A stretch of DNA of 53,474 bases from a virus. The notes below the pieces were generated by a model, which was not told the origin of the DNA, searched no databases, and was given only the letters and a program-made list of their open reading frames with translations. Location of the stretch: IMG/VR virus record IMGVR_UViG_3300021519_000014, positions 1-53,474 of that record; one strand, 5' to 3'. How positions within the stretch are numbered: the first letter of the stretch is position 1; every line of letters starts with the position of its first letter. Shown here piece after piece: positions 17,277 to 51,255 of the stretch. The position numbers were made by a program, and so were the translations under genes.

Positions 17277-18515
17277 CGATCCGCCCGCCGCGCCAAAAAC
17301 GGAGGTGGCCGCCGTGTTCGCGGCGTAGCCTGAATTGCCACTGGCCCCCGCAGCAGCGATGCCTCCGGTCGCGGTCCCGGCAATGCCACCAGCGCCCGCC
17401 GCGCCAACGGACACAGCTGCATCCGTGCCGCCGCCGCCCGTGCCGCCCTTGCCGATGCACAGCACGCCGACCGACGTATCGCCGCCGTTGCCGCCCGCAT
17501 TTGGACCGGCAGCACCAGCAGTACCGCCCGCGCCAATAGTGACAGTCTTGGACGCTCCGATGTCCGCCGCCGTCGCCAGCTTACGAGAGTAGCCGCCCGA
17601 TCCGCCGCCGCCGCCGACATTGACCTGCGACCCCGTGCCATTTGAGCCGCCACCCGCACCGCCGCCGCCGACGCATTCGATGATGCAGGTGACCATGCCG
17701 GCGTGCGGTGTGTATGTCCCAGAAGAGGTGAATACCTGCTGAAATACGGCGGTCGTAATTGCCGCCGTCGTCTGGGTTGTGGCGTTGGGGAACACGAAGC
17801 CGCCCGTAGTCGATGCGACGGTGCCCGCCACGGTCAGCATGTTGCTGCCGACGGTCGTCGTGCCGATGCCAACCTGCGTGCCCGACGGCGACAGGTACAG
17901 CGTGTTGCTGCCCACATTCAGCGTATTCGGGATCGCCATCGCGTTCGAGTTGACCGTGAGCGTGTCGCCGCCCGCGTCGCCAAGTACGGTATTGCCGCTG
18001 TTGGTCAGGCCCGCGACGGCAAGCGTCGTTCCGTCGAAGGTGAGGTTCGCGCTGCCCGCCAGCACGCCCGCGTTGTTGTACTGGACCTGCGTAGTCGAGC
18101 CGCCCGCGGCGGCCGTCGTGTCGTTGCGGACCATGCCGGACGCCGTGCCGTCGCAGGAGATCTGGACGTTGTCGCCGGCGTTGATCGTGACGTAGGTGCC
18201 GCCCGCGGCCGACTGCACGCGCACGGCGTAGCCGCCCGCCGTGCCGTTGCGGACGACCCACTGGCCCCCGATGCTGGAGGGGACCGAGTAGGTGACGATG
18301 CCGCCGGGGGTGCCCGAGACTACGAGCGAGAGGGGGACGCACTGCGCCGCCGACAGGACGACCGTCGTGCCGCCCAAGCCGGTGGAGTTCAGCAGCGTGC
18401 TGGCGCCGAGGGCGGAGTCGAGGAGTCCGAAGTTGGTGTTGAGGGGCCCGGTGCCCCACGTGTTGGCATTGGAATTGTAGGCGGGCTGGTCGAGCCCCTT
18501 GTTGGCTGTGGTCAT
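17097..18515 (-). CDS. Tail fibre with glycine-rich C-terminal domain
   Basis: The 472-residue protein begins MTTANKGLDQPAYNSNANTW, a usual N-terminus of phage fibre or tail-end proteins. The middle is beta-rich with fibre-like repeats (GTTLAVAGLTNSGNTVLGDA). The C-terminal 150 residues are glycine-rich (VGGGGAGGGS, GAGGTAGAAG) and end SSGIVIITEYCN, resembling glycine-rich receptor-binding domains such as that of T-even gp38-type adhesins. It is the last gene of the late region. ATGA overlap with the 907-residue gene shows coupling. Host-range function is inferred. Confidence 0.7.
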   Translation of the reverse strand: MTTANKGLDQPAYNSNANTWGTGPLNTNFGLLDSALGASTLLNSTGLGGTTVVLSAAQCVPLSLVVSGTPGGIVTYSVPSSIGGQWVVRNGTAGGYAVRVQSAAGGTYVTINAGDNVQISCDGTASGMVRNDTTAAAGGSTTQVQYNNAGVLAGSANLTFDGTTLAVAGLTNSGNTVLGDAGGDTLTVNSNAMAIPNTLNVGSNTLYLSPSGTQVGIGTTTVGSNMLTVAGTVASTTGGFVFPNATTQTTAAITTAVFQQVFTSSGTYTPHAGMVTCIIECVGGGGAGGGSNGTGSQVNVGGGGGSGGYSRKLATAADIGASKTVTIGAGGTAGAAGPNAGGNGGDTSVGVLCIGKGGTGGGGTDAAVSVGAAGAGGIAGTATGGIAAAGASGNSGYAANTAATSVFGAAGGSSLFGGGAAPAAFFGTGDANGAAASAYGSGGGGGYTSNSIANVAGGAGSSGIVIITEYCN

Positions 18516-21235
18516 TGGAGGGCCTCTTCAGCTATGGAGAGCGCCTTGGTGATGGCCTCATCAGGCTGCTCTAGGAGGGGTTCTGTCGTCGTGTTGTGGC
18601 CCTTCTTGGCCTTCTCCGCGGCGCGGATCAGCGACATCGCGATGCTGCCGTGGTTGATCCCCCCGATCCGCCCGCCCGCCTTGCGCCCCGGACGAGGAGC
18701 CCCCGTTGGCGTGGCGTACATCGGGATCGTCAGACCTTGCGCAGGCTGCGGCGGCGGAGCGTCAAGATCACGACCGCCAAGGTAACCGTACTTTGCGCCG
18801 GCTGTCGCCGCATCCTGCGCATATCGCGCCAGCCCCGGAATTGAAAACGGATTTCGAATGTTTTCTACTGAAGGCGCTTTGAGAAGCTCCCGCATAACTT
18901 TCGGGTCTTCGAGCGCGGCTTGCAGCAGCTTCGTGGCGGCCGCCTGTACGTCGCCGTACATCAACCGCGTTGTTAGTTGCCCCGGCGTTCCCCCGAGATA
19001 CCCACCGAGCCCTGCGAGACCGGCCAATTCCGCGCCCGCTGTCAACGCGGCGGGCAATCCGGTGGCTTTTGCAGCGCCAAAGGCAAGCGCGCCTTGCGCA
19101 AGACGGCCCATTGCGACACCGTGGACTAGCGTGAAGATGTCGCCCTGTTTCAGCAGGTCAGTCAATCGACGCTCGTCAAGCGCGCCCTGCGGGATACGCG
19201 ACCAGACTTCAGCCGACCGTTGAAGTTGCGTCAGCGATTGAGGACTATGCCCCGGCAAGGCTGCGCGCAAGTCAGCAGCGTTGTTCTGGATGAAGTCCGC
19301 GATGCGCGTAGGGTTCTCGCTGTTGAGTACGTCGCGAAACTCACCAACGAGCCGCTCGCTGCCGGCGCGCGCCGTGACGGCGCGCAAACGACTTTCAAGC
19401 CCCGGCACTTCAGCAACCAGCGACGCGAAGCTGGGATCCTTCATGTACCGCTGCAAGTCGGTGTCAGTTATAATCTTCTGGCCGTTGTTCGAGAGCTTCG
19501 AGACGGCCCAGTCCGATACCGACTCCTGCAGATTACGCTGCATGCTCGCGCGGTCCCCCGCCGGCAGCCTTTCGGCAACCGCCGGGGAGTCAAAGAACGA
19601 CGCCATCCGCCTGTAGTTGCCCGCGGCGTCTTTACCCTTCAGCAGCGTGTCGAGCGTCGTCTCAGACGGCAGCACGTTCTCCCCGGCGCCTGCAACGCCT
19701 TCGCCGTAGCGTTTACGAAGCTGGCCGAAAACTTTATCGCTGCTATCGAAAAGCCGTTCGTACTCTCGCGTCTTTTTGACGGCATCCGTCCATGAGTCAG
19801 AGAACTGCCCGTAAGTCACGCCTTCCGGCATGAACCTCTTCGATACATTCTCAACGTTCTCCAGCACCGGGTTGAAAGCCTCGATAAAAGCTCGTGTGCT
19901 GCGGCTGTCGCCGCGCCCTTCCCGCAAGTTCTCTTTCGCCGTCGACAGCGCGTTTTGGACGTAGCGAGCAGGCACCGTACCCTTCGCCATGTCGAAAGCT
20001 TCAATATATGCCCGCAGGTTCGGGTCGAGGGCTGCTACACCCGGGCCGATTTTCTCCGCCATTGCTTGAGAAGCTGCGCGCAGCGGTGGAGTGTTGATTT
20101 CGGCCAGCTCAAGCACGGGGTGTTTCCACGCGAGATCGGCGTCGCCCTTCATCCGGTCGTGGATGACGTCGAAGGGTCCGCGTGCCCTGACCGACGCTGC
20201 CGCCTGCGGATTATCTCCTACGACCCGCAGCGTCTCGTGCAGCGGGCTTGGCGCTGGCGCCGCCGCCGCGAGGCGCGCCGCCGCGCTCCCAATTTCCTGC
20301 CGTGCCTCAGTTGTGAGGATGGAACTTCGCTCTGGCGCGATTTCTTTTGTGAGCCCTGCGAGTCGCGGGTTCTGCGCCATGAGCTGTCGCGAGATGGGTT
20401 CGGCCCCCGGGGTGTAGAGGTCCGGGGAGAGCCGCGGCACGTCAGTGACGCCTGCCTCTTTGCGCAGGATGTCGGCCGCTGTGCCTTTGGCGATGGCTTC
20501 GCGTTCAGCGCGCCCGGCGCGCAGCGAACCCGCCCGCGCGCCTGCCAGCGCCCCGGCGATCTCCGCGCCGGGTGTGTTAGGCAGCAGTTCACCGGCTGCC
20601 CCCGCACCGACACCTGCCAGCAGGTTTGCGGGGCTCGCGGTTTCACGAATTGCGCCGCGTGTGAGGCCGCCTACACCACTGCGGATTGCGCCGGGTACCG
20701 CACCGAATGCGGGCGCGCCGCCGATGAATTCACCGGCAGTACGCGCCGCGCGACCGTATCCCGTGGCGGGTTCGTATTGGAGCCCCGGCACACCCTGCCG
20801 CGATGCCCAGTCGACTGCTCCCTTGCTGGTCGGCAGATCGACGCCCAACACCCGCGCATGCGTGCCGGCGCGTTCTTCAGGCGTCGCGCTTTCGGCTGCC
20901 GCGCGTTTGGCGGTTTCTAATTTTTGCGCGGCCTCACCCGGCGCGGTGAACCCAAGCACTTCGCCGGCTTTACGCGCGGCAAACGGGACGTATTGTTCAC
21001 CCAGCCGGTAAAGTTGCGCGATGTCACCCGGCAGCCCCGCCGTCCCTACAAAACCGCGGCCGACACCGGACGCCGTAGCCTTGGCGACATCTTCAACTAC
21101 TCCCGGCGTTTCGCCCGGAGAGGGCGTCTCAAAAGTTCCTTGGCCTGTGGCCGTTACTCTTGCGCCGGGGCGCACCGCGCGTTCAGGGGCCCGCGAGGGC
21201 GCGGGCGTCTCAAAAAGAACTTTCTCATCAGTCAT
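18512..21235 (-). CDS. Large internal virion (ejection-like) protein, 907 residues
   Basis: Ala/Gly-rich helical protein with no catalytic motif that I recognise. It begins MTDEKVLFETPAPSRAPERA and contains a long glycine/alanine segment near 180-240 (LLAGVGAGAAGELLP, AGALAGARAGSLRAG) that could insert into membranes. The C-terminus has GRKAGGRIGGI. Length, composition and position between a lytic ejection-like protein and the fibre fit an internal core or ejection protein of a short-tailed phage. Inference only. Confidence 0.55.
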   Translation of the reverse strand: MTDEKVLFETPAPSRAPERAVRPGARVTATGQGTFETPSPGETPGVVEDVAKATASGVGRGFVGTAGLPGDIAQLYRLGEQYVPFAARKAGEVLGFTAPGEAAQKLETAKRAAAESATPEERAGTHARVLGVDLPTSKGAVDWASRQGVPGLQYEPATGYGRAARTAGEFIGGAPAFGAVPGAIRSGVGGLTRGAIRETASPANLLAGVGAGAAGELLPNTPGAEIAGALAGARAGSLRAGRAEREAIAKGTAADILRKEAGVTDVPRLSPDLYTPGAEPISRQLMAQNPRLAGLTKEIAPERSSILTTEARQEIGSAAARLAAAAPAPSPLHETLRVVGDNPQAAASVRARGPFDVIHDRMKGDADLAWKHPVLELAEINTPPLRAASQAMAEKIGPGVAALDPNLRAYIEAFDMAKGTVPARYVQNALSTAKENLREGRGDSRSTRAFIEAFNPVLENVENVSKRFMPEGVTYGQFSDSWTDAVKKTREYERLFDSSDKVFGQLRKRYGEGVAGAGENVLPSETTLDTLLKGKDAAGNYRRMASFFDSPAVAERLPAGDRASMQRNLQESVSDWAVSKLSNNGQKIITDTDLQRYMKDPSFASLVAEVPGLESRLRAVTARAGSERLVGEFRDVLNSENPTRIADFIQNNAADLRAALPGHSPQSLTQLQRSAEVWSRIPQGALDERRLTDLLKQGDIFTLVHGVAMGRLAQGALAFGAAKATGLPAALTAGAELAGLAGLGGYLGGTPGQLTTRLMYGDVQAAATKLLQAALEDPKVMRELLKAPSVENIRNPFSIPGLARYAQDAATAGAKYGYLGGRDLDAPPPQPAQGLTIPMYATPTGAPRPGRKAGGRIGGINHGSIAMSLIRAAEKAKKGHNTTTEPLLEQPDEAITKALSIAEEALQ

Positions 21236-24200
21236 TTACTCACCCCACTGCGCGCCGCCACCGGCGCTAGGGCCAAGGAAGCGTGCTTTCTGATACGTGT
21301 TGCCGTAGGGCACCATATACATCTGGCCAACCTTGAGTTTACGCGGGTCAGGGCCCGAAGATGTCATCGCAGTGTCGATGTCGCCAAGCACGGCGATATC
21401 CTTCTTCACCCGCGCAATCCGCTCGTTCAGGTTGTTACCGGGGAGCCGCGCCCACGCCTGCGCCGCGCCAGCGCGGTCAATGCTGGGGCCGTACTTGTTA
21501 GGAGACATCTGCTCATTAAGCCAATTGTCGCGCTCTTGAGCCCACTGCGCAGTCGCCACCAATTCAGATATGATAGCTTTATTGGCTTCTGGCAGAAGGT
21601 TCATGTCAGAGTTGGCGTTGCTCAGACCTCCATACCGGGTGTCTGACATCGCGCCAGCGTTTTTCAAATTGTCCATGATAAGTTTGTAGGCGTTCTTGCG
21701 CGCGATCTGGAAGGCGTCAGGGTCGGTGGCCGTGATGGTCTGGCCAGTGAAGCCCTGCACCAGCGCCGCCACGTTGTTGATGGCGCCACGCAGCGGGCCG
21801 GTCTGGGCTTCCTGCAGCGCCTTGCTCAACTCAGTCGCCGTTGAGAGCGAGTTCTCAAAATTCTGTTGGCGGTTTTCGTATGTGTTCTTCCACTGCGTGT
21901 TGTCGGCAGTGCGCTGCGTCTGCGCTTGCATGGAATTGAAACCGGGCAGCGTGATAAACCCGGTGCCGCCAATTACTGGTACCCGACCATTGCTACTGAT
22001 TTCAGCCTGAATTTCATCAGCTTCACGACGGCGTCTTGCAGACCCTTCGGCATCAAAGCGGGCCATTTGCCGCGCCTCTTCTCGCATAGTATCCGGGTTA
22101 CGCGCCGGGTCGATATTTTGCGCAACCCACTGTTGCTGCTCAGGCGTAATGCCGGCGGGGCGCGCCCAATCAGGCACGTCACCCGGCGGCGTAGCCGCTG
22201 AAGGTGCGGTAGCCCCGCCAGCCGCAGGCGCGCCGCCAGTCGCAGGCGCGCCGCCAGTCGCAGGCGCGCCGCCAGTCGCAGGCGCGCCGCCAGTCGCAGG
22301 CGCGCCGCTCCTGAGCAAATCCTGCATCTCGCCGGGTGACTTTGCATACCGGCTGAGCAATCTGCTAATGTATTGCCCAAGAATATCGTACTGCTTTTGC
22401 ACCGGGTTGATCAGGTCGGCTGAATCGCGATTGGCGATCATTTGGCCAAGTTTGGTACCGAGGTCCGTGCGAATTTTGAATAGTTCGCCCGCAGAGGATA
22501 TGTCAGCCCGCTGTTGATTTATGTCGAGGCCCTGCTGCTTATACGACATCATGGGATACATCTGCGCGGCTTCGCCAAGGCCCTGACCGATAGCGACGCC
22601 AAGGTACGGCGACGGCGACGCAAGCATCTTTCCGATGCCCCCCGCCAACGGCATCAGCCAGTTCTGGTTGTTTCCAATCCAGTCGCCGGCGCGGTCGAAG
22701 AAATTACGCTCCGCAAGGTTGGAGGCGTTGGGTGCCCTCAGAGCGTTCGATTCCACGGCAGGTGCAGGTGCGGGGGTATTGCCCCCCGGTGGCGTCTGCA
22801 CAGCTTGCGGCGGCGGAAGCGGGGGCGCGCTTGAGGGTGCCGTCCGCGCAGCGGGGGGCTGCGCAGCGGTGTTGTGGCCGACAAGATCGCTATCCCCGGT
22901 GGTGCGTTCAGCTCCCGCAGTGCTTTGCGGTGGTACAAGGCCCTGCGTAATTTCGGGCGGGTATACTGGCGGATTTGTCGTCGTCGTCGCCGGTTGCGCA
23001 GGCGGCGGCACAAGCCCCGCTGGGGTAGGCTCGGTTTGCGCGGCTGCCGCGCTACCCGTTGACGGGAACAGACTGCGCGTGAAATTGCCAATTGGATCGC
23101 GCGCAGGCGGCTTCATATTAGTAGGGTACGCAGGCGCGATTGAGTATGGGTCAACGCCTGTCGATTCGCGCGGCGGCGGTGGCACAAGCCCCACCGGGGG
23201 CTGCGGCTGCTCAGTCGCGCGCAACGTGTTTTCAAATCTGCGCTGACGCACGTTCTGGATCGTGGCGTCGCGCGCATAATCGCCTTCAGGGCCCCACATC
23301 GGCGGGGATGGTTCGCCAATCATTCGGTTTATGACGCGCGTCGTCTCCTCGTCGTCTGCCACGGCGCTTCCATCTGCGTAACCACGGCGCGGCACGAGGC
23401 CGCCCGAGGCAAAGCGGTCGGGCATCTCGAAACGGTCGGGCATCTCGAAATCGTCGCCCGTGTCGATGGGCTCAAGACCCGCGTGCATATCTTCAACATC
23501 GTGAAGCGGGGGCGCGAGGCCCGCGCTGCGCGGTGCCTCGGGGCGCATGTGCACCTCGGCCGGCGGCGCGCCGCCCATGATCTTGGCGACATAGTCGTTC
23601 GTCGACATGTTGACGTCGCGCCGTCCGAGGCGCCGCGCCTCGGACAACGGCACGCCGCTGTGCCACATCGAGGCGGCGTCGGCGAGGTTGCCGTGCTGGC
23701 CGAGATACTTGCCAAAATGGTGCTCGAAGACGCGCTCCTGCGCTTCCGGGCTCTTCAGAAACTCTTCCGGCGTCATGCGGCGCCCAAGGGCCTCTTGCGT
23801 CCACGACGGGATGTTTGCGCCCATGACCTGATACTTGCCGTGTGCGCGGTCGCCGCCGACTGACGGCCCCATGGCGTCGTATCGGCCGCCGCTCTCGATG
23901 CCCGCGATCCGGCGCTTGGCGTCGGCCATCATAGCCGGGTCAACGCGGCCGTCGGTGGCGTAGCCGACGCGGCCGCCGTCCTTCGCGAACGCAGAGCCTG
24001 CCATCTTGCCGGCCGCACCTCCTATCATGCCGCCCGCGGGACCACCCATTAGCGAGCCTCCGATAGTGCCTACGAGGCCCAGAAGGGCTCCCGCGGTTCC
24101 GTCTTTCTTTTGGCCGTCCTTATCGCCGCGCATGTCGAGCTTCGGCGCGTCGAGTTTATTCTGTTTTTGCGGGTCGTCGGCAAGGTCTTCAACTATTGAT

Positions 24201-26419
24201 TTGTCGTCGGTGCCCCCGGTGTACGGAAGCGCCGGGTTGCTGCCGACCAAGCCGCCGGGGTTGTATCCGATGCGTCCGCCGCGCGCGACAAACACAGAGC
24301 CGAGGCCCTCGCCAACACCCCCAAGGTCTTCTGCCGGAAGCTCGCCAAGCGACGCCGTTGTAATTTCAGAAGGCGCCGGTGCCACCTCGGCCGTTTCCAG
24401 CTTTGCTGCGCCCAGCCCCGGCGCCGGTGCCACCTCGGCCGTTCGCTGCGGCTCCGCTGCGCCCAGCCCCGGAGCAGCGCTCGTCCGCACGGGCGCCGGC
24501 TCCGGGGTGGCGGGAGCCGCGCTCGGCTGTGCGGAGGGAGGCAAATTTTCGGTCTTAACACTTCCCGGCGAAGTTGACGCCGTGTAGCCCGGTTGCGCCG
24601 GCTGCTGACTGGCGCGCTGCTCACGCCACCAGTCGCCAACCCCCTTGTATGCCTCCTCGCCGACCTTGTAGGCCTTCTCGCCGACCTTGTAGGCCTTCTC
24701 GCCCGTCTCGACGGCGCCGACGGCATCCTTGATGCCGCCCCCGACTACCTCGCCGGTTGACTTCGGCGGCGGCGGCGGCGGGGACAAGTTGCCTTTCAAT
24801 ATCGAAGGCGGGGTTATCGGTTTGGCGCTCCACCCCTGCTGCTGCCCCTTGGGCAGTGATTTACCCGCAATGCCGTAAGGCAGCGACCCTGCACCCGGGT
24901 TCGCAAGCATCTCAAGAATCTGCTGCGATCTTGCGTCGACACCCGGCGTCACCGCGCCCGATAATGCAAACGCGGGGCGAGGCGCGCCGAGGGCCGCCAT
25001 GCTCGGATGCACGGCGCCGCCCTCGGACGACGGCATCAGGCCGCCCCCGTAGGCGCGCTCGGCGTGCTTCGTCGCGGCGTCGTAGTCGACGGCCTTGATG
25101 CCCTCGGCCGTCTCGCTGACGGCCTCCGGGTGGTGCTTCTCGACGTCCTGCGCCGAGAGGCCAATCTGCGGCTGGTTCGATCCCTTGTACTTGAACTTGA
25201 TGATCTTCTGGCCGTCGTGGGTGCGGCCGATCTCGGTAATGTCTTCCTTGACGCGCTCGTCCGAGAAGAACGGCGTCGGCGAGCCGGTGACGCCCGACGT
25301 CGTGCTGCCGTAGAGCGGGCCGCCGCCGTAGGCGATGTTCGCGAGGAACTGGGCGATCTGGAACGGGTAGCCCTGCTGCTGCTGGTACTGGTTGTACAGC
25401 GCCGCGTTCTGCTGCTGCTGCGTCTGCTGCTCCAGCGTGCCGGCGCCAAGTAGCGCCTGCCCGCTCGCCAGCCCCGTCTGCGTGCCCTGCTGGCCTATTC
25501 CGGTCAGTCCTTGGGCCACATTCTGCCCGTAGCCGAGGAGGCCCTGCCCGAGGCCCTGCTGGGCCTGCGCGGCCGCCATCGGCTGCTGGAAGGCCTGCTG
25601 GCCGATCTGGAGGAGCTGGGGCGAGAGCTGCTGCATCGCCGCCCGGTTGGCCTGCCCCGCCTGAAGGCCCACACCCTGCTGCTGTTGCCCCGCCTGCAGG
25701 GCCTGCCCGTAGCCTTGCGAGAGAAGCCCGGCCTGCGTCTGCTGCGCGGCCAGACCCTGCTGGCGCGCCAGATTCGCGGCCCCAATCGAGCCTCTGTCGC
25801 CGCCGAAGGCGCCGCGCATCGCCTGCGAGCCCATGAGCTGGCTCTGCTGCTGTTGCTGCTGCTGGTACAGACCCTGCATCGTCGGTGCAACAACCGACTG
25901 CAGGTAGGGGTCCATGTACTGCCCGATGTTGAGCTGCCCCGGGTTCACCGCCTGCGCGCCGGCCAATCCCGCCATCGTAGCCGCGCCCGTGTAGGGCGCG
26001 CCCGCCGCCTGCGCCGTGTCGATATTCTGCCCCGCCTGCCCGTAGTAGGGGAGGGCGGCCTCGGCTGCGCCGGTCAGGGCCGTGGTCGCGGCCTGCTGAT
26101 AGGGCTGGTAGCCCTGCCCCGCGTTGGCGATCTGGGCAGTGCCGGCCTGCTGGGTGGCCGTCAGCGGCGCGACGAACTGGCCCGTGTACGGCTGGAACGG
26201 CTGCTGCGCGGCCGTCTCTGCGCGGGCGTTGACCGCGTCGTAGCGCGCCCGGACTTCGGGAGGGATTGTCGTCGTCTGCTGCTGGTAGGTCGTGCCGCCG
26301 GCACCACCCTTACCGCCGCCGAACGCAAGATGCCGGCGCGCAATCGGGGGCGCGCCGTCGAGGCCCATGAAGTCCTCGAAGGGGGCCCCGTCGTTCCAGA
26401 TCTTGCGTTCAGAGAACAT
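21236..26419 (-). CDS. Giant multidomain virion protein with S74-like chaperone and lytic transglycosylase domains
   Basis: The protein has 1727 residues. Residues 1-380 are Gln/Gly-rich (many QQ runs). About 383-460 is an intramolecular-chaperone/peptidase S74-like domain: FFSDERVKEDITEIG then QIGLSAQDVEKHHPEAV; the Ser-Asp...Lys dyad is present. About 828-948 is a lysozyme-like transglycosylase domain (IESGGRYDAMGP, HGKYQVMGAN). Short tandem repeats occur at about 572-592, 650-685 and 1370-1405. The C-terminal 300 residues are helical. It probably crosses the cell wall during DNA delivery. S74 domains are normally C-terminal, so the central position is odd. Confidence 0.75.
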   Translation of the reverse strand: MFSERKIWNDGAPFEDFMGLDGAPPIARRHLAFGGGKGGAGGTTYQQQTTTIPPEVRARYDAVNARAETAAQQPFQPYTGQFVAPLTATQQAGTAQIANAGQGYQPYQQAATTALTGAAEAALPYYGQAGQNIDTAQAAGAPYTGAATMAGLAGAQAVNPGQLNIGQYMDPYLQSVVAPTMQGLYQQQQQQQSQLMGSQAMRGAFGGDRGSIGAANLARQQGLAAQQTQAGLLSQGYGQALQAGQQQQGVGLQAGQANRAAMQQLSPQLLQIGQQAFQQPMAAAQAQQGLGQGLLGYGQNVAQGLTGIGQQGTQTGLASGQALLGAGTLEQQTQQQQNAALYNQYQQQQGYPFQIAQFLANIAYGGGPLYGSTTSGVTGSPTPFFSDERVKEDITEIGRTHDGQKIIKFKYKGSNQPQIGLSAQDVEKHHPEAVSETAEGIKAVDYDAATKHAERAYGGGLMPSSEGGAVHPSMAALGAPRPAFALSGAVTPGVDARSQQILEMLANPGAGSLPYGIAGKSLPKGQQQGWSAKPITPPSILKGNLSPPPPPPKSTGEVVGGGIKDAVGAVETGEKAYKVGEKAYKVGEEAYKGVGDWWREQRASQQPAQPGYTASTSPGSVKTENLPPSAQPSAAPATPEPAPVRTSAAPGLGAAEPQRTAEVAPAPGLGAAKLETAEVAPAPSEITTASLGELPAEDLGGVGEGLGSVFVARGGRIGYNPGGLVGSNPALPYTGGTDDKSIVEDLADDPQKQNKLDAPKLDMRGDKDGQKKDGTAGALLGLVGTIGGSLMGGPAGGMIGGAAGKMAGSAFAKDGGRVGYATDGRVDPAMMADAKRRIAGIESGGRYDAMGPSVGGDRAHGKYQVMGANIPSWTQEALGRRMTPEEFLKSPEAQERVFEHHFGKYLGQHGNLADAASMWHSGVPLSEARRLGRRDVNMSTNDYVAKIMGGAPPAEVHMRPEAPRSAGLAPPLHDVEDMHAGLEPIDTGDDFEMPDRFEMPDRFASGGLVPRRGYADGSAVADDEETTRVINRMIGEPSPPMWGPEGDYARDATIQNVRQRRFENTLRATEQPQPPVGLVPPPPRESTGVDPYSIAPAYPTNMKPPARDPIGNFTRSLFPSTGSAAAAQTEPTPAGLVPPPAQPATTTTNPPVYPPEITQGLVPPQSTAGAERTTGDSDLVGHNTAAQPPAARTAPSSAPPLPPPQAVQTPPGGNTPAPAPAVESNALRAPNASNLAERNFFDRAGDWIGNNQNWLMPLAGGIGKMLASPSPYLGVAIGQGLGEAAQMYPMMSYKQQGLDINQQRADISSAGELFKIRTDLGTKLGQMIANRDSADLINPVQKQYDILGQYISRLLSRYAKSPGEMQDLLRSGAPATGGAPATGGAPATGGAPATGGAPAAGGATAPSAATPPGDVPDWARPAGITPEQQQWVAQNIDPARNPDTMREEARQMARFDAEGSARRRREADEIQAEISSNGRVPVIGGTGFITLPGFNSMQAQTQRTADNTQWKNTYENRQQNFENSLSTATELSKALQEAQTGPLRGAINNVAALVQGFTGQTITATDPDAFQIARKNAYKLIMDNLKNAGAMSDTRYGGLSNANSDMNLLPEANKAIISELVATAQWAQERDNWLNEQMSPNKYGPSIDRAGAAQAWARLPGNNLNERIARVKKDIAVLGDIDTAMTSSGPDPRKLKVGQMYMVPYGNTYQKARFLGPSAGGGAQWGE
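22218..22307 (-). repeat. 18-bp tandem repeat, five copies, coding GGAPAT
   Basis: Five near-identical 18-bp units, each containing the palindrome GGCGCGCC, code for Gly-Gly-Ala-Pro-Ala-Thr in the 1727-residue protein. It probably makes a flexible linker. Confidence 0.9.
24644..24703 (-). repeat. 24-bp tandem repeat coding KAYKVGE-type units
   Basis: About two and a half copies of a 24-bp unit (CTTGTAGGCCTTCTCGCCGA plus four) code for GEKAYKVGEKAYKVGEEAYK in the 1727-residue protein, an amphipathic charged stretch. Confidence 0.8.
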
Positions 26420-27057
26420 CAGTGTTCAGCCTTGTTGGTGACGCCCGACGGCAGCCGGCGCCGCTTGGTGTTGTTGGCGACGGCGGTCAGAACTTGCAGG
26501 TTCCACGGCACGTGCAACCCTCGGCTATGCGTTCCTTTGATAGGATAGATGTGGTCGACTTCGTGAGCCACCCCGGTTTGCGTCGTCCGAGCCAGCGCGA
26601 TGTCGTAGAACTCGGCAACCTGCGCGCGCTGGATAGCGGTGAGCCACGACGGTGTCGCCTGTTTCACTGCGGTCTTTCGCGCTGCTTTTCCCGCGCGCAG
26701 TGCGTCGCGGTTTCGCGCACCCCATTCGCGTCCGTATTGTTTGCGTGCTTCAGCGTTACGTGCGTAACGAAGCTGCTCGACGGCCACGCGACACGCCTTA
26801 CACATCCGCCTAAGCCCGTCGGGGGAGTTTCTAACGCGCCCGAAATCCGCGCACGTTTTCATCTCGCTGCAGCGTGTGCACGCGCGCGGCGCGTCAGGTG
26901 ATACGGTCACCATTGCGGGGCGTGCGTGTTTTTTAGCGTAGTTAGCGCGTGCGCTCTTGTTGTGGCATTGCTTGCACCAAGAAGACGGCGATCCGTAGAC
27001 AGTCTTGTAGAAATGGTCGGCGTCTTTAGCTTCGCGGCATTTCGTGCAGGTTCTCAT
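26419..27057 (-). CDS. Free-standing HNH endonuclease with two zinc-ribbon motifs
   Basis: The 212-residue protein has C-x2-C pairs at the N-terminus (CTKCREAKDADHFY, WCKQCH) and again (CTRCSEMKTCADFG, CKACR). The C-terminal HNH core reads HEVDHIYPIKG, then GLHVPWNLQVLT, then N-N-T-K-R. It is the type often found as a free-standing homing endonuclease in phage late operons. Its ATG overlaps the GNAT stop (ATGA), and its stop overlaps the start of the giant protein (TGATG), so it is spliced neatly into the operon without breaking either neighbour. Confidence 0.85.
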   Translation of the reverse strand: MRTCTKCREAKDADHFYKTVYGSPSSWCKQCHNKSARANYAKKHARPAMVTVSPDAPRACTRCSEMKTCADFGRVRNSPDGLRRMCKACRVAVEQLRYARNAEARKQYGREWGARNRDALRAGKAARKTAVKQATPSWLTAIQRAQVAEFYDIALARTTQTGVAHEVDHIYPIKGTHSRGLHVPWNLQVLTAVANNTKRRRLPSGVTNKAEH

Positions 27058-27536
27058 TTGTTGGTCACCCCCGTCTCGGCGCCACACAACCAATAGGCAC
27101 CGGAGGGCTTACCGAAAATGCGCTCGTACAGGCGCACCTTCCCCTCCGTCCGGCTGTTTGACAGGATGCCAATCATCAGGGGCATCTCAAGTTTCGACGC
27201 CGCCGCCTTGGCGAATTCGCACAGTTTGCGCGCGCGGCCGCCCTTGGCGCTGCGGTACTCCGGGTGGACGAACACGCCGCGCTCCTCCAGCACGACCTGA
27301 TCGCTGTACCAGAGCTTGCAGGTGCGCATGAGGATGCCCCCCTCGAAGTGGTCGGAGCCGGGGGCCCCGATCACGCCGCAGATGCCGCCGTCGCGGTTGA
27401 GCGCGGGCCACACTTCTGCGAGAAGTTTCTGCGGGTCAGGATGCACGAAGCCGTTCTCCTCGCTCCCCTGCAGACAGAGGGACATGAATTGATGTATGTC
27501 GTCGGGTGTGCCGACGCGGACGTGGATGTCGGTCAT
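27054..27536 (-). CDS. GNAT-family acetyltransferase
   Basis: Start ATG 27536 is chosen because GAGGAG lies six bases upstream. The 160-residue protein has the N-terminal strand VRVGTPDDIHQFM and a motif A region (RGVFVHPEYRSAKGGRARKL), the acetyl-CoA pyrophosphate loop, followed by CEFAKAAASKLEMPLMIGIL. GNATs occur in many late operons of short-tailed phages of alphaproteobacteria; the substrate is unknown and could be a virion protein. Confidence 0.8.
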   Translation of the reverse strand: MTDIHVRVGTPDDIHQFMSLCLQGSEENGFVHPDPQKLLAEVWPALNRDGGICGVIGAPGSDHFEGGILMRTCKLWYSDQVVLEERGVFVHPEYRSAKGGRARKLCEFAKAAASKLEMPLMIGILSNSRTEGKVRLYERIFGKPSGAYWLCGAETGVTNK

Positions 27537-27577
27537 CTGCTTCTCCTCAAGCATTGACGGGGTTGCGGGAGTGCCCA

Positions 27578-28198
27578 CTAATCAACCTTTGGACCCGGAA
27601 GATTCTCAAGCGTCTTGATGGTCTTCGCCCTGAACCGCTTTACAAACTCGTCGAGGATCCTGTGCCCGTCGTCGAGCGAGCCCTTGCCGAGCCGCACGAC
27701 GTCCTCGGGGTGGATCACGTACTCGCCGCCGGCGGCGACGATGGGGACCGTTGCGCTGCCGCCTTCCGCCTTGCCCGGCATGGGCGCGTTGTAGGGCAGC
27801 ACGTCGTCGGTGTAGGGCTGGTCGCCCTCGGCCCCATACGGTTCGCCGGACTGGCCGTAAGGTGCGCCGGCGCCCGCCTTTGAGGCGTCGTAGAAGGGTG
27901 AGGTGAAGATCGACTTGGCGACCTTGAAGCCCGCCGTCGTGTTGCCCTCGCCCATGGCCGAGATGATATCAGCCGGAATGACATACGCCCCTGAGGGGAC
28001 GTGCATTGGGAGATGATCCGTTCTTCCGGCAACGGCGCTGTGGATCGCGCCGGTGTGGACCTTGCCCCCGGTGGCGCGCGTCTTGCGCGCCGTGTTCAGG
28101 GCGGCGGCGATGGCCTGCTCGCGCGGACGCCCGGCGTTGAGCATTTCGCCGATGTTGGCGCTGATCGTGGCCTGCGAGGAACCGCGCTTCAAGGGCAC
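27578..28198 (-). CDS. Virion-associated protein with MPLKRGSS N-terminus, 206 residues
   Basis: GTG start at 28198 with GGAG eight bases upstream. The N-terminus MPLKRGSSQATISANIGEML then RPREQAIAAALNTARK is a widespread phage motif (DUF6496-like), probably a small basic helical domain. The C-terminal part has GGEYVIHPEDVVRLGKGSLD, a pattern also met in phage tail-region proteins. It carries GGK/GGS motifs like other late proteins. Function unknown. Confidence 0.65.
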   Translation of the reverse strand: MPLKRGSSQATISANIGEMLNAGRPREQAIAAALNTARKTRATGGKVHTGAIHSAVAGRTDHLPMHVPSGAYVIPADIISAMGEGNTTAGFKVAKSIFTSPFYDASKAGAGAPYGQSGEPYGAEGDQPYTDDVLPYNAPMPGKAEGGSATVPIVAAGGEYVIHPEDVVRLGKGSLDDGHRILDEFVKRFRAKTIKTLENLPGPKVD

Positions 28199-28733: not shown

Positions 28734-29122
28734 CAGATGATCCCCCACGCGGTGCCGGTTGAAACCAACGTGATGCTTTCGTATTGCACCGACAGGATCT
28801 GCGAGGCGCCCCCGTCGATGAACTCGCCACCGGCGGCGGCGACAGTGATGCCGCCTGCGCCGCTATTCTTGACGATGAACACCTGCCCCTGAATTCCCGC
28901 CGCCGTGGGCAGTGTCACCGTGAACGTGTTGGACGTGCAGTCGACGACGCAGTCGGTCAACGCTATCGTGTAGGTGCCGCTGATTGGCGTGTATTTGACC
29001 TTGAGGGCGGCCCCGAGCGAGGGCTGGATCAGCGTCAGGAAGTCCGCCATCAGGCGCTGGATGCCGTTGATCGCGACGACGCCGTTCTTCTGGACCGTAA
29101 TGACGTCGTCAAGCGATGCCAT
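28733..29122 (-). CDS. Structural protein, 129 residues
   Basis: Start ATG 29122 overlaps the previous stop (TGATG). The N-terminus MASLDDVITVQKNGVVAING is helical; the second half is a small beta domain (FTVTLPTAAGIQGQVFIVKN). Repeats of this beta domain occur in phage neck and tail appendage proteins. No specific function. Confidence 0.6.
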   Translation of the reverse strand: MASLDDVITVQKNGVVAINGIQRLMADFLTLIQPSLGAALKVKYTPISGTYTIALTDCVVDCTSNTFTVTLPTAAGIQGQVFIVKNSGAGGITVAAAGGEFIDGGASQILSVQYESITLVSTGTAWGII

Positions 29123-31452
29123 CAGAATTTTCCTGCCGGTGTGATGCGGTAGCGCGGGGCGCCGATGCGCCAGAACGTGTCGATGTCGTTGCTCTCGAAC
29201 TTGATCGACACCAGCCGCCCGCGCAGCCGGGGGGTGATGTACTGGGTCGCCTGTGTCAGCGTGTAGGGGCCGTGGACGCGCGGCGTCTGGCTGGGATAGT
29301 CGGCGACATAGAATGTCATCAGGAGCGAGGCGTTCTGGGCGCCGTTGTAGTAGCCCCACTTGAAGTCGGGCCAGACCTGATCAATGAACGAGAGCAGGTC
29401 ACCGTCCTGCAGCGTGAAGTAGCCCGTCTGGAAGCTGGCCGCCAGCGGCTGGCCGTCGGCGTTCGGCGACGTCTCGTGCTGGAAGATGAGGCCCGTCGGG
29501 GCGCCGCCGATGGGCGGCCCCAGTACCGACTGGTTGATCCACGCCGTGCGCGAGAGGTAGCCGTAGTCCCAGCTGCTGGTGCCCGCAGAGTATTTCACGT
29601 AGGCGTCGATCTCGCCGCCGCCCGCAGTCGTCGGGAAGAACCACGAGATTTCATTGAAACGTGAGTTGGGCGCGCAGCGGATCTTGTCGACGTTCGCCGT
29701 GTCGAGCTGCTGGAACACGAAGTCCCACACGGTGCAGGGAAGGTCGCGCACGCCGTCGCTGTAGATGTAGAACTGCGACGGGCCCATCCAGAACGTGACG
29801 TTGTTCAGGAAGCCGAACGCCTTCTTGGCGATCAGGCCGCAACCCGTCGCCAGCTCGTTGAAATTGTAGACGTCGGGCAGGTTGACGTACTGCATCGCCC
29901 AGAGCGCGAGGTCCGTCCAGAGCAGGCCCTGCTGCGGCCCCTGCGCGCCGCCGATAATGCGGCTGCCCTTGGTCAGGCGGTAGGAACCCGCCTGATTGAC
30001 CGGCGTAGCGATCCACGAGTTGAAATTGTTGAGGTCGCACCACCGGATCAGCAGGTGATCCTGCACACCCGTAAACGTCGAGGCGAGCGCCACGATCTGG
30101 CGCTGCGGCATCGCGAGGAAGACGCTGTGGTTCGTGATAGGCGCCTGCGGGATGATCTGGGCATTCTGCAGGCCTGTCGCGGGCCCCCACTGGAATATCG
30201 GGCCGCCGGGGTCGACGTCTACGGTCTGCGTCGGTGCCCCGTCGGGGGAGGCGATCAGGATTTCGCCCCAGTTATCCAGCGACCAGTCGTCGGCGGTAAT
30301 GGGGAAGCCCACGGCAGCCGAGGGGGTAGTCCCGGTCGAGTAGCCGCCGACGGAGTACCCGCCGGTCGAGTATCCCCCACCGGGGGGAAGTGGCCCATAG
30401 CTGATGTAGTAGACGTAGCGGGCGTCGCCGCCGTTGATCGATTCGGTTTCAGTAGTCTCCGGGTCTTGGGGCGCCTGAATTGTAAACGTGTCGACGGTTG
30501 GCACCGTCAGTACGGTGTAGTCCCCCTCCAGCGTCGTGCTGCCGACCACCGTCGCTATGAGGACAGGGTAGGTATCGCCAACTGCGTACCCGTGGTCGTT
30601 CAGCGTGACCGTGACGATGGATGTCCCTGAGGTCGTGTCGAATACGGCGACGTCGCCGCCGTTGGTGACAGTGGCGGTGGCGAGCGCGGGATCGCCCAGC
30701 ACGTCCGTCGCCGCGATCTGATACGTGGTGGAAGATGCAGAGATGCACGGGTAGACCCCGAACAGGATCAAGCCGCCGACGCTGATGTGCGCCGGGATGA
30801 ACACCGCGTCGTAGCCAGTGATATTGCTGCCGCCGCTGCCGACGGTCCCGGGGACAGTCTGCGCCCCGGTCGTGGCGTTGGCGTAAGACACTGAGCCGGC
30901 ACTGGAGGCCGTCACGGTCGCGGTGGAGTTGTAGCCCCCGGGCGTCACGCCCGCGACGACGACCGCCGCGCCGAGGGGGAAGACATACGTCCCCGCGTAG
31001 GTGATCGTGGCGGTGGTGCCGTCGCCCGAGGCGCCTGTCGTGGCGGCGCTGAAGCCGGGGTCGGCTATGGTGACGATGTCGCTCCCGAGTGTCGTCGTGC
31101 AGTCGACCGCAGTGTTCTGGACGTAGTACTGCGGGGTGATAGGCTGCAGCACACCCCCGTCAACGTCGTAGACGTACAGCGGCGCGCCGACTGCCGGCGT
31201 CGACACTGACGTCTCGCACCCGATGGCTAGGTAATCGTTGGCGAGGTTGTCGCGCCAAGCCCACAGGGCCCTCGGCACGGCAGGCACCGCAGTGGGGTAG
31301 AAGCGCGTCCAGCCCCCGAGCTTCTGCACGAGGCCGAGGTTCTCCCGGTCGCGCATGAAGCGGATCAGTTGGGTCTGGTTGATCGCGGCCTCGTTCAACG
31401 CGGGCGTGCGCTGCGTGTCGACCGTGGGGATCAGCTTCAGGCTGGCGTGCAT
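29122..31452 (-). CDS. P22 gp10-like tail/packaged-DNA stabilisation protein
   Basis: The 776-residue protein starts MHASLKLIPTVDTQRTPALN then QTQLIRFMRDRENLGLVQKL and GGW, the usual N-terminus of tail hub/stabilisation proteins of short-tailed phages. A beta-rich insert of about 200 residues (about 100-330) with repeated Thr/Gly segments interrupts it, then the beta-propeller-like part (WGEILIASPDGAPTQTV, IVALASTFTGVQDHLLIRWC) follows. It seals the neck after DNA packaging. The insert is longer than I would expect and may be a surface decoration. Confidence 0.7.
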   Translation of the reverse strand: MHASLKLIPTVDTQRTPALNEAAINQTQLIRFMRDRENLGLVQKLGGWTRFYPTAVPAVPRALWAWRDNLANDYLAIGCETSVSTPAVGAPLYVYDVDGGVLQPITPQYYVQNTAVDCTTTLGSDIVTIADPGFSAATTGASGDGTTATITYAGTYVFPLGAAVVVAGVTPGGYNSTATVTASSAGSVSYANATTGAQTVPGTVGSGGSNITGYDAVFIPAHISVGGLILFGVYPCISASSTTYQIAATDVLGDPALATATVTNGGDVAVFDTTSGTSIVTVTLNDHGYAVGDTYPVLIATVVGSTTLEGDYTVLTVPTVDTFTIQAPQDPETTETESINGGDARYVYYISYGPLPPGGGYSTGGYSVGGYSTGTTPSAAVGFPITADDWSLDNWGEILIASPDGAPTQTVDVDPGGPIFQWGPATGLQNAQIIPQAPITNHSVFLAMPQRQIVALASTFTGVQDHLLIRWCDLNNFNSWIATPVNQAGSYRLTKGSRIIGGAQGPQQGLLWTDLALWAMQYVNLPDVYNFNELATGCGLIAKKAFGFLNNVTFWMGPSQFYIYSDGVRDLPCTVWDFVFQQLDTANVDKIRCAPNSRFNEISWFFPTTAGGGEIDAYVKYSAGTSSWDYGYLSRTAWINQSVLGPPIGGAPTGLIFQHETSPNADGQPLAASFQTGYFTLQDGDLLSFIDQVWPDFKWGYYNGAQNASLLMTFYVADYPSQTPRVHGPYTLTQATQYITPRLRGRLVSIKFESNDIDTFWRIGAPRYRITPAGKF

Positions 31453-47697: not shown

Positions 47698-50600
47698 TTA
47701 TTTTCTCCGTGTTATCGCGAGCGCACGCTCGACAATGTTGGTTGCGCGCCCACCGCGTTTAAAGTCGCCCGAGCCGGTGCCGTCGCCGCCCAGTATCTCG
47801 GTCGGTGAGGGTCCGTAGTTCGTCTGGTAGTACGGCATTGCATCGGCGGCGGGTTGTACCGGCGCGACGGCGGGTGCGGGCGCGGCGACCTTCGGGGTCG
47901 TCGGGAACATCTCTTCGTAGGTCTTGCCGTTCAACGCATTATACATCAGGGCACGGCTGGCATCGTTGGGGGCATCCCCTCTCGCCTGCGCATCCATGCG
48001 CTGGTAGGCCCCGTAGGGGGCCCGCTGCGGCATGGCCTGCTGCTGCTGCGGGGCCTGCGCTGCGACCTGCCGGTTGAGGTCGCTGAAGGCCCCCCGCAGG
48101 TTCTGCTGGAGCTGTTCGACGCCGCCGCCGGGTGTGTAGCCGGCGCGGCGATTAGCTACTTCGCGTGTGGGTGCACGGCCGGATCGCGTCGAAACATAGG
48201 GGGCAAATCCTCCTCTTGCTCGGCCGACAGGCGCGAGGGCGGCTTGCCCGCGTACAAGAGGTTCAGAAAGTGCTCCCTGTCCAGCGGGACTTTGGTTGCC
48301 CTCATCAGGTCCAGAAGACCCTCCCACGAACCATGTCGGGGCTGGGATGCCGTGGGGGGCTGATAGATTGACGATGCGCTGCTGGGCTTCATGTTGGTCT
48401 ATCTTTCCGTTGCGGTATTGCTTCCAGACATCGGTCACACGCGCATTATGCGCGGGGGTCTTGGCGGTGTCGGGAAAGAGCCCTCGCACCGCTTCCCACG
48501 TAATCGACTGCATTTCGCGTGGCAGGATACCACGCGACGCCGCCGCCTTGCGATATGCATCTGCGTACAGTGGGTACGTGCCTTGGATGCCGGTCATCGC
48601 CGTCCCGCGCGCGGCGGGCAACCCGACGCCGGGGTGGTTGGCGAAGTTGTGGGCCACTTCTAGAGAGTTGCCCGATAACGGGCGCAACAACCCCGCCGCT
48701 ACAGCGTGCGTGTCGATGGTGACGTCGCCGTGAGGGGACTGCGGCGCCAGAATGTTGTTGTAGAAGTTACGGACTTTATGCTTCTCGCCCATCAGCTGAG
48801 AGAGCGCCTCCGGGTTTCCCGCGTTCTCAATAGCTTGAATAGCTTTTCCGATTTCCGTGAGCGACCCCCACCCAACCTTTGCCTTCGCGCCTTTGGCGGT
48901 GGCCACGAAATCGCCGTCTCCGCCTTCCGGTGTAATGATGCGATGCGCCGGGTCGCTGTGCGCTTCGTCGTGCATCCTGATCCATAGCGCCTTGGCCTGC
49001 GCCTTGGCTGCTGGCGACAGGTCAAGGCCGTCAAGATCCGCCAATGAGCGGCCATTCATAAGCTGCCGCACGCCTTCATACGCCGGTTTGTTGAGCGACG
49101 GGCGCGACGTGAACGTCTTGGCCATCTTGTCGTCGAAGGCGAAACCCTTGTAAAAATTTTCGTTGCCGCGCATGGCGTTAAGGACGCGCTCGGCCAGCGA
49201 GACGTTCTGGTACCAATCTTTCTGCGGTGACAGCGCGGCCAGTGCGCCCGCGATGCTATGATCCGGCAAGCCGTACTTCTGCGACCAACGGTCGGTGATT
49301 GCCCGCGCGCCGTCGTACCAGAGCTTGCTGCGCTGCCGGATGTGCTCGGGCACCGCGTCGTGCAGGGCCAACAAGTTGTCCGTCACGTGGTTTATAAAAG
49401 CATCGGCTACTTTGTCGTGGTTTTTATACCCCGCAACTTTGGCGGTCGTGTTTGGATACGCGCGCACCAAATCAACATTTGAACGGAATACATCAGGTGT
49501 TTGTTTCATAGATGCCACATCAACAATGTGGCGTTCACCTGCGGTGGGGGTGTGTTTCTTGCTAGTGATCAACCGCGTAGGAATCCACGCTGGGTGGTCG
49601 CCTGTGGCTTCGCCACCGTCAGCGTAACGCTGGTGCACCCCTACATCTCCGCCGCGCTTGAATGAGTTGAAGCCGTTGGCCTTGATGCTGTCGCGCATCT
49701 GCGGCGTGACGTCGAGGCTGTGAAGTCGAGATACGTCAGTCGTGGATGGGCGGTAGTTGGACGGCGTCACCAAGTCGTCGCGCTCTTCATCGGTCAACTC
49801 TTCAAAGGGGCGCGAGGACTGCATCTCGTGCGCGTGCAGGTTGACCTTCGCCTGCGGGTCGTGCTGCTGCGCGAGGGCCTGCAGGCGCTTCGGGAGGATG
49901 TTGTCGTAGTAGCCGCGCATGCCCTCGCCGCCGACCTTCAAGCCTTCGCCCTCAAGCTCGTGGTAGAACTCGCCGCCCAGCTTGCCGCGACCCTCGTAGC
50001 GTTGCATCCCCTGCTTCAGGATCCGGTCGGCGGCCTCCTTGCCGATGTGCTTCGACAGGTCCTCTGGCTTCACGTTCTCATGTTCGACGCCTTGGTTGTC
50101 GTGCGTCGTCGCGTGAAGGTAGCCGAGGTCGGGATAATACTGGATGTTCTTGACCTGACTGCTCAGGTCGTACCGCTTGTTCTGCTCGTCGCCCGGCGTG
50201 ACGACGATCTTGTCGTAGCCGCCGTGCGCGGCCTCGTGCAGGACGCGCTTCAGCGCGAGGTCGGTCCACTTCTGGGTGTTGTCGACGTAAGGACCAGAAG
50301 GAACGCCCTTGTCGCCCTTCGCCGCCATAACATCAATCTGGCGCTGCAATGCTTCGTGCTCTTCTGCAGTGCTAGTAGCATCGCGGCGGTGCAGCAAATC
50401 TTGAAATTTTGCCTCGTTGTCAAATCCGCGTTCACGGCCCTGCTGGCCCCAGTCGCTCTGGGCTTCCTCAAGGTGGAGGATCTTCTCGCCGTTCGGGCCT
50501 TTACGGTCGGACATGCGGACGTGCGCGAGGACGTTAGGCTCGTCCCAGTGGCCGGATTTGTAGTTTTGCGTGCCGTGTCTGGCTTTGAGTTGCGTCAACT

Positions 50601-51255
50601 CTTCGCCAGCCTGCATAGCTTCCCGCTCGCGTAGATCGTGGTCTGCACGAGACGTTTGCGAATTGCCGCCGAGTTGATCAAGTAGTGAAGCATCGAACGC
50701 GGCAAGTGCTTGCTTGTGGCGTGCGCGCGCGGCGTCTACCGCGGGATGGTCTTTTGAAGGCGCGTGCAGCAGCACCTCGCGGTAGTTCTCGCCGCCGGGT
50801 AGCGCGGTCTTCTCTTCGCCGTATCGACGCAGCGCCGATTGCTCGTCGTCCCCAGTGTAGACCGTCTCCTGCAGCGGGGCGGCATTGTCCTCAAGGTGCT
50901 TGATCACCTCCTCTCGGGGAAGGGCCTTCGAGCCCAGCGTGTCGAACTTGGAGTGCTTCAGCTCATCGGGCTTGATGCCCGGCATCGCCGCGTACTGCTG
51001 CGGCGTCGCCTTGGCCTGTCCCTTGGACTTGATGATCTTGGCCGCGCCGCTGTAGAGCTTGAAGGGCGGGACCTTGCCGCCTTCGGCATAGCCCGACGGG
51101 CCGATGTACTTGCCGCCGCCGGGGCCGCTGTAGCCGCCGCCGCCGGGCGACGGGTCCATGCCCCCGCCGGGCCCCGGGTAGATGTTGGCCACTCGCCGCA
51201 GCAGGGCGCGCTGGTCGCGGGCGATCATCGTCGCGCGTCGAATGTTATCAGCCAT
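47698..51255 (-). CDS. Large polyvalent-type virion protein, 1185 residues
   Basis: Residues 1-60 are Gly-rich. About 225-340 include GEKILHLEEAQSDWGQQGRE then DNTQKWTDLALKRVLHEAAH and GGYDKIVV, a domain common to polyvalent phage and plasmid proteins. About 545-980 form a second conserved domain (AGALAALSPQKDWYQNVSLA, then VTIDTHAVAAGLL and REMQSITWEAVRGLF), which may be a DUF7178 or HhH-glycosylase-like fold. The C-terminus ends KRGGRATNIVERALAITRRK. It overlaps the portal stop by 8 bases. It may be injected to protect phage DNA; this is inference. Confidence 0.6.
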   Translation of the reverse strand: MADNIRRATMIARDQRALLRRVANIYPGPGGGMDPSPGGGGYSGPGGGKYIGPSGYAEGGKVPPFKLYSGAAKIIKSKGQAKATPQQYAAMPGIKPDELKHSKFDTLGSKALPREEVIKHLEDNAAPLQETVYTGDDEQSALRRYGEEKTALPGGENYREVLLHAPSKDHPAVDAARARHKQALAAFDASLLDQLGGNSQTSRADHDLREREAMQAGEELTQLKARHGTQNYKSGHWDEPNVLAHVRMSDRKGPNGEKILHLEEAQSDWGQQGRERGFDNEAKFQDLLHRRDATSTAEEHEALQRQIDVMAAKGDKGVPSGPYVDNTQKWTDLALKRVLHEAAHGGYDKIVVTPGDEQNKRYDLSSQVKNIQYYPDLGYLHATTHDNQGVEHENVKPEDLSKHIGKEAADRILKQGMQRYEGRGKLGGEFYHELEGEGLKVGGEGMRGYYDNILPKRLQALAQQHDPQAKVNLHAHEMQSSRPFEELTDEERDDLVTPSNYRPSTTDVSRLHSLDVTPQMRDSIKANGFNSFKRGGDVGVHQRYADGGEATGDHPAWIPTRLITSKKHTPTAGERHIVDVASMKQTPDVFRSNVDLVRAYPNTTAKVAGYKNHDKVADAFINHVTDNLLALHDAVPEHIRQRSKLWYDGARAITDRWSQKYGLPDHSIAGALAALSPQKDWYQNVSLAERVLNAMRGNENFYKGFAFDDKMAKTFTSRPSLNKPAYEGVRQLMNGRSLADLDGLDLSPAAKAQAKALWIRMHDEAHSDPAHRIITPEGGDGDFVATAKGAKAKVGWGSLTEIGKAIQAIENAGNPEALSQLMGEKHKVRNFYNNILAPQSPHGDVTIDTHAVAAGLLRPLSGNSLEVAHNFANHPGVGLPAARGTAMTGIQGTYPLYADAYRKAAASRGILPREMQSITWEAVRGLFPDTAKTPAHNARVTDVWKQYRNGKIDQHEAQQRIVNLSAPHGIPAPTWFVGGSSGPDEGNQSPAGQGALSEPLVRGQAALAPVGRARGGFAPYVSTRSGRAPTREVANRRAGYTPGGGVEQLQQNLRGAFSDLNRQVAAQAPQQQQAMPQRAPYGAYQRMDAQARGDAPNDASRALMYNALNGKTYEEMFPTTPKVAAPAPAVAPVQPAADAMPYYQTNYGPSPTEILGGDGTGSGDFKRGGRATNIVERALAITRRK

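Follow-up and report, generated by a model that had tools for sequence, protein, structure and literature searches.

A reduced S74 domain inside a putative fused ejection protein of a virus

The 53,474-base virus contig IMGVR_UViG_3300021519_000014, analysed here over its whole length and called the window below, carries a portal gene and a major head protein gene as well as an open reading frame with an ATG start (21236..26419) that encodes a protein of 1727 amino acids. This frame lies on the minus strand, as do its immediate neighbours and all features for which coordinates are given within it. An endonuclease VII-like gene (26419..27093; PHROG 1035, E 3.5e-25), the stop codon of which overlaps the start of the frame, is inserted between the latter and an acetyltransferase-like gene (27054..27578; PHROG 1249, E 3.3e-6), the usual upstream neighbour. 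In the related contigs L020, L021 and L024 an acetyltransferase is likewise found upstream of the S74 gene, and the order acetyltransferase, S74 protein, ejection proteins is seen in all three and in the window. No endonuclease VII-like gene is annotated at that place in these three contigs. Directly behind the large frame lies a gene for a protein of 907 amino acids (18512..21235), which has no match in PHROG or NCBIfam; judged by position only, it would be the third ejection protein (the slot of P22 gp16). Elsewhere in the window, a 1185-residue protein with three DUF7178 stretches (47698-51255) adjoins an SU10-type portal gene, and a 776-residue virion protein (29122-31452) combines a strong match to PHROG 3287 with a weak, below-cut-off Pfam match to an endosialidase beta-barrel (E 0.022).

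The 1727-residue protein is composed of distinct modules. Module 1 (residues 1-385; 25265..26419) is rich in glutamine and is delimited by profile comparison, by a match to PHROG 6121 (residues 125-452, E 7.6e-14) and by a structure model of residues 36-470 (435 residues, computed as a monomer), in which residues 36-385 are helical with modest confidence. It is followed by a reduced S74 domain (residues 386-452; 25064..25264), recognised by Pfam PF13884, a family profile, the model and a profile search of the PDB, with codons 25262-25264 for Ser386 and 25247-25249 for Lys391. The next module (residues 453-826; 23942..25063), defined by alignment with the relatives L035, L057 and L008, is a linker that corresponds to the stretch holding a second S74 domain in two-domain relatives. 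Residues 827-950 (23570..23941) form a lysozyme/lytic-transglycosylase-like domain. While a Pfam search of the window protein did not call this domain, its fold belongs to the lytic transglycosylase/lysozyme superfamily, with 116 residues aligned to Cj0843 (8gfc) by VIA-align at Z 12.5 and rmsd 2.7; PHROG 24990 matches it (E 1.2e-14), as do tape-measure and glycosylase proteins in tblastn searches, and the motif around Glu842 makes this residue the probable catalytic one. The transglycosylase that the first-pass annotation had placed somewhere in the C-terminal part is thereby located. Residues 951-1300 are a linker modelled with low confidence, and the C-terminal part (residues 1301-1727; 21239..22519) is mostly helical, with pLDDT values mostly above 80 and some weaker stretches. 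Short motifs of the form FAxGG and GYxxGG recur between modules in the window protein and its relatives.

That an S74-like domain with a Ser-Lys dyad lies at about residues 383-460, followed by some 1260 further residues, had been proposed from the sequence, and the proposal holds closely: Pfam PF13884 matches residues 386-434 above its cut-off (26 bits against 22, E 1.1e-5), Ser386 and Lys391 occupy the dyad positions (SDxxxK) and 1275 residues follow the domain. A search of the window's own record with the S74 profile gave one place (32.1 bits, E 8.6e-9), the family profile put the domain at residues 378-452 (121 bits), and a sensitive search for a second S74 domain in the window protein found none. 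In the PDB, the family profile matched MYRF (7dc3, E 1.8e-5) and a long tail fibre (6f45, E 4.7e-5), whereas the S74 region used as a single sequence gave nothing meaningful. In the alignment to 7dc3 the lysine is kept and the serine position is an alanine, from which we infer that the crystallised chain is an inactive mutant.

Structure prediction had been put forward earlier as a check on the domain. In the model the domain has high confidence (pLDDT 91-96), a hairpin of two long strands replaces the canonical helix alpha-1, only one short helix is present, and the domain ends in a helix of four residues with nothing resembling the alpha-4 coiled coil. A triple beta-helix is also absent directly upstream of the domain in the model, which has helices there (at modest confidence). 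Fold matches in a viral library covered 63-69 columns with rmsd 1.2-1.9 and presumably correspond to the S74 part; when the 435-residue model was compared with PDB folds, helical bundles took up the hits, so that these searches probed the helical part rather than S74. The reduction is also visible across the family, in which the distance from the dyad lysine to the glycine has a median of 29 in both terminal and central domains compared to 36 in canonical-type domains, and in which the median fraction of glycine and proline in domain tails is 0.29 for central domains (n=81) and 0.06 for canonical-type hits (n=21). Profile and dyad make the domain an S74, but the protein does not belong with the canonical C-terminal intramolecular chaperones, since a C-terminal position, alpha-4 and an upstream triple beta-helix were each looked for and each found to be absent.

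A family-profile search over 157 sources, for which the viral-contig scan contributed the best 80 of 226 relatives, gave 179 domain hits. With two duplicate sources removed, 177 hits remained (68 terminal, 81 central, 24 low-scoring and 4 unclear); L019, which is the window itself, and L026, from the same contig as L003, were dropped before counting. Near-duplicates such as L005/L006, L015/L018, L053/L055 and L078/L079, among others, are kept in these raw counts, and clustering at 90% identity leaves 60 terminal and 62 central domains. Most of the low-scoring hits are canonical domains whose tails are helical. Canonical-type S74 proteins with a helical tail are also encoded on the contigs of L014:3-611 and L016:2-2521. 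With the window included, at least 63 proteins have a central S74 domain (3 of them open at the 5' end and 8 at the 3' end). This architecture is widespread and commoner than the earlier finding had implied.

At least 11 of the central-S74 proteins bear two S74 domains (L035, L040, L042, L049, L053, L055, L057, L058, L069, L095 and L106), although the second is partial in L042, the first is weak in L095, and L053 and L055 are nearly identical. Pfam independently finds two S74 places in one frame in L035, L040, L049, L057, L058 and L106. In a domain tree most second copies lie nearest to other central-class domains, which suggests an origin by internal duplication. L035 and L037 share 54% identity over most of their length while only L035 has the second domain; a second S74 can therefore be acquired or dropped as a cassette.

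The central position of S74 can be understood from phages in which the parts of the window protein are encoded separately. In phiGT1 (Sulfitobacter), EBPR podovirus 2, RHph_N2 (Rhizobium) and ppBeUSDA76-2 (Bradyrhizobium), proteins of 326-367 residues end at the same S74 domain and are followed by putative ejection-protein genes; in phiGT1 and EBPR podovirus 2 the annotation gives the downstream protein a peptidoglycan hydrolase or muramidase-like domain. According to its record, the particles of phiM5 contain the S74 protein together with the three encoded behind it. PAE2 has coat and tail accessory genes of the P22 type, and its S74 protein sits where P22 has gp7. Outside S74, the N-terminal part of this PAE2 protein matches the 'DNA transfer protein p32' of phage DSL-LC05 (232 residues). 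In MW202496 the S74 gene and a transglycosylase gene of its own overlap at the start of the second, which in turn matches residues 621-743 of one fused protein from Rhizobium sp. BK316. In the relatives the gene boundary coincides with the C-terminal end of S74.

Profile comparison supports the same correspondence most clearly for the N-terminal part. With S74 excluded, module 1 of 59 fused sequences aligned to that of 71 separate sequences with a hhalign probability of 98.8% (E 1e-16, 249 columns), a match that low-complexity, glutamine-rich sequence may inflate. The C-terminal halves of fused and separate proteins matched weakly (E 0.04-0.08, hhalign probability about 1%), so that for this half the correspondence leans on gene order, on PHROG 24990 and on lytic domains. 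The scan for families covered 45 fused C-parts (window included, L016 left out) and the products, at least 400 residues long, of 29 separate genes that lie behind terminal-S74 proteins, four others having been dropped by hand as misplaced. PHROG 24990 matches 9/45 fused C-parts and 13/29 separate downstream proteins. Pfam finds an SLT domain in 9/45 of the former and a tail lysozyme in 4/29 of the latter, a minority of each set, and the lytic cassettes vary among relatives. The homology of module 1, the phages with separate genes and the comparison of MW202496 with BK316 together indicate that the window frame is very probably two neighbouring podophage genes for ejection proteins fused into one. 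The first would encode a DNA-transfer protein of the gp7 slot that normally ends in a reduced S74 domain and the second the ejection protein next behind, here with a lytic domain. The earlier idea that the two parts flanking S74 represent two proteins thus agrees with the products of two genes in other phages.

The gene occupies the same position, in the same order, as the ejection-protein genes of P22 (gp7, gp20 and gp16) and T7 (gp14, gp15 and gp16), and T7 gp16 likewise brings a lytic domain to the ejection proteins. In both phages these proteins are encoded by separate genes, unlike the fused protein of the window, and S74 is absent from the text of PMC8954989. Counterparts are found in phiGT1, phiM5, RHph_N2, EBPR podovirus 2 and PAE2: their S74 is reduced in the same way, and profile comparison of the two sets gives an N-terminal module of the same kind, but the protein stops at S74 and the next ejection protein has its own gene. 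Long proteins from uncultured Caudovirales phages in UniProt (A0A6J5SB99, A0A6J5N916 and A0A6J5LD05) are 42-88% identical to the modelled stretch and carry the name 'Intramolecular chaperone auto-processing domain containing protein', which is a database name only. Among the search listings of open-licence PMC papers, none dealt with these long proteins, with S74 in ejection proteins or with proteins that have two S74 domains.

S74 domains cleave their own chain at their N-terminal end. The motif that carries the dyad, SDxxxK, is invariant in its Ser, Asp and Lys in 149/149 reduced domains, a count in which viral contigs are represented by the best 80 of 226 relatives, and it is kept in 11/11 second copies. 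The viral-contig scan used two retrieval patterns, and as one of them includes SD...K and biases that scan toward the dyad, the domains of the genome scan (39/39 with the motif), which was run with a pattern free of these residues, are given separately, as are the 104 domains matched by the second viral-contig pattern. The 149 do not include three domains truncated by a contig end, a domain whose tail has 47 residues, or the 24 low-scoring hits. Among 11 close sequences S74 showed no extra constraint, with pN/pS at 0.242 compared to 0.278, 0.209 and 0.222 in flanking regions. A hydrophobic segment before S74 (best 19-residue mean of at least 1.6) was found in 2/71 terminal, 0/70 first central and 1/11 second domains, which speaks against a general membrane anchor at this place. 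With regard to virion proteomics, 'S74' does not occur in the main text of the phiGT1 paper, and a term search of the Ochrobactrum phage paper returned nothing.

Known S74 proteins differ in what surrounds the domain. Endosialidase NF and phage tail fibres share the S74 profile and the Ser-x4-Lys dyad with the window protein, but there the domain is C-terminal with a coiled-coil helix, and in the endosialidase it stands behind a triple beta-helix, whereas in the window it stands in mid-chain behind a helical part and has no such coiled-coil helix. The statement that S74 is normally C-terminal, made in the first-pass annotation, holds for endosialidase and tail fibres but not for human MYRF, which cuts itself into two pieces in mid-chain at a central S74 (PMC3742443). 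The ICA domain of MYRF (the 7dc3 profile match) is the nearest functional parallel, and the S74 of the window would work most like it, between two functional parts. MYRF, unlike the window protein, is a membrane transcription factor and keeps a beta-helical stalk and the alpha-4 coiled coil; this coiled coil is the main driver of trimerisation in MYRF, and cleavage requires the trimer (PMC8326128). Since the reduced domain lacks it, cutting is less safe than the dyad implies. Weighing the invariant dyad against the missing coiled coil, the helical surroundings and the unremarkable constraint, we put at about even the chance that the reduced S74 still cuts the chain before Ser386 and so separates the two proteins again. 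As S74 cuts N-terminally and the gene boundary of relatives lies at its C-terminal end, S74 would stay attached to the lytic half after such a cut.

The explanation that best accounts for these observations, and that we hold to be somewhat better than an even bet, is a fusion of two ejection-protein genes in which the reduced S74 most likely still cuts. Upon assembly of the subunits, the chain would be cut before Ser386 into a helical protein of 385 residues, probably part of a channel through the envelope, and a product of 1342 residues in which S74 comes first, with the domain that cuts peptidoglycan and the helical C-terminal part behind it. A further-reaching version, which we consider rather unlikely in its entirety, is a self-cutting ejection polyprotein in which the cut is tied to assembly or to ejection, so that the lytic part is released only when needed. 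One gene would then supply equal numbers of two ejection proteins, with a third in those relatives that have two S74 domains. The coupling would arise if S74, devoid of its own coiled coil, were triggered by the oligomer of the helical module at the portal or the envelope. The main rival is that S74 no longer cuts and serves as a docking or oligomerisation module in a protein that stays whole in the virion. The loss of alpha-4 and alpha-1, the missing triple beta-helix upstream and the lack of extra constraint among close relatives all fit this possibility, to which we give appreciable but lesser weight; in a module that merely binds, Ser or Lys should be free to vary, and neither has done so in any reduced domain or second copy.

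The remaining alternatives are far less probable. The coincidence of the relatives' gene boundary with the end of S74 would also be produced by a lost stop codon that joined two genes and left S74 to decay, but such a relic is very hard to reconcile with at least 63 central-S74 proteins, at least 11 of them with two domains, with an intact dyad and with a pN/pS of about 0.24, and conservation already makes it unlikely. Separate production of the lytic half from an internal start just behind S74 is scarcely more credible, as the Met codons present there in the window are not kept in relatives, which have for example GGLIPSS (L005) or GGLVPIES (L014) instead. Least probable of all is that S74 is misplaced in an otherwise ordinary tailspike or tail fibre: one relative does bear the name 'tail fiber domain-containing protein' and another 'putative tailspike protein', but gene order, homology to the gp7 slot, the helical upstream part and the lytic domain all speak against it.

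S74 is familiar as the chaperone of tailspikes and, in animals, as the release domain of MYRF. Here it occurs within ejection proteins of podophages, once or twice per chain, reduced in form and with its Ser-Lys pair intact. The central domain itself is real and conserved, and from the sequence its reading as part of a self-cutting polyprotein is plausible. If S74 does cut in these proteins, it would be able to work without a coiled coil of its own, and phages would make several ejection proteins from one gene at a fixed ratio.
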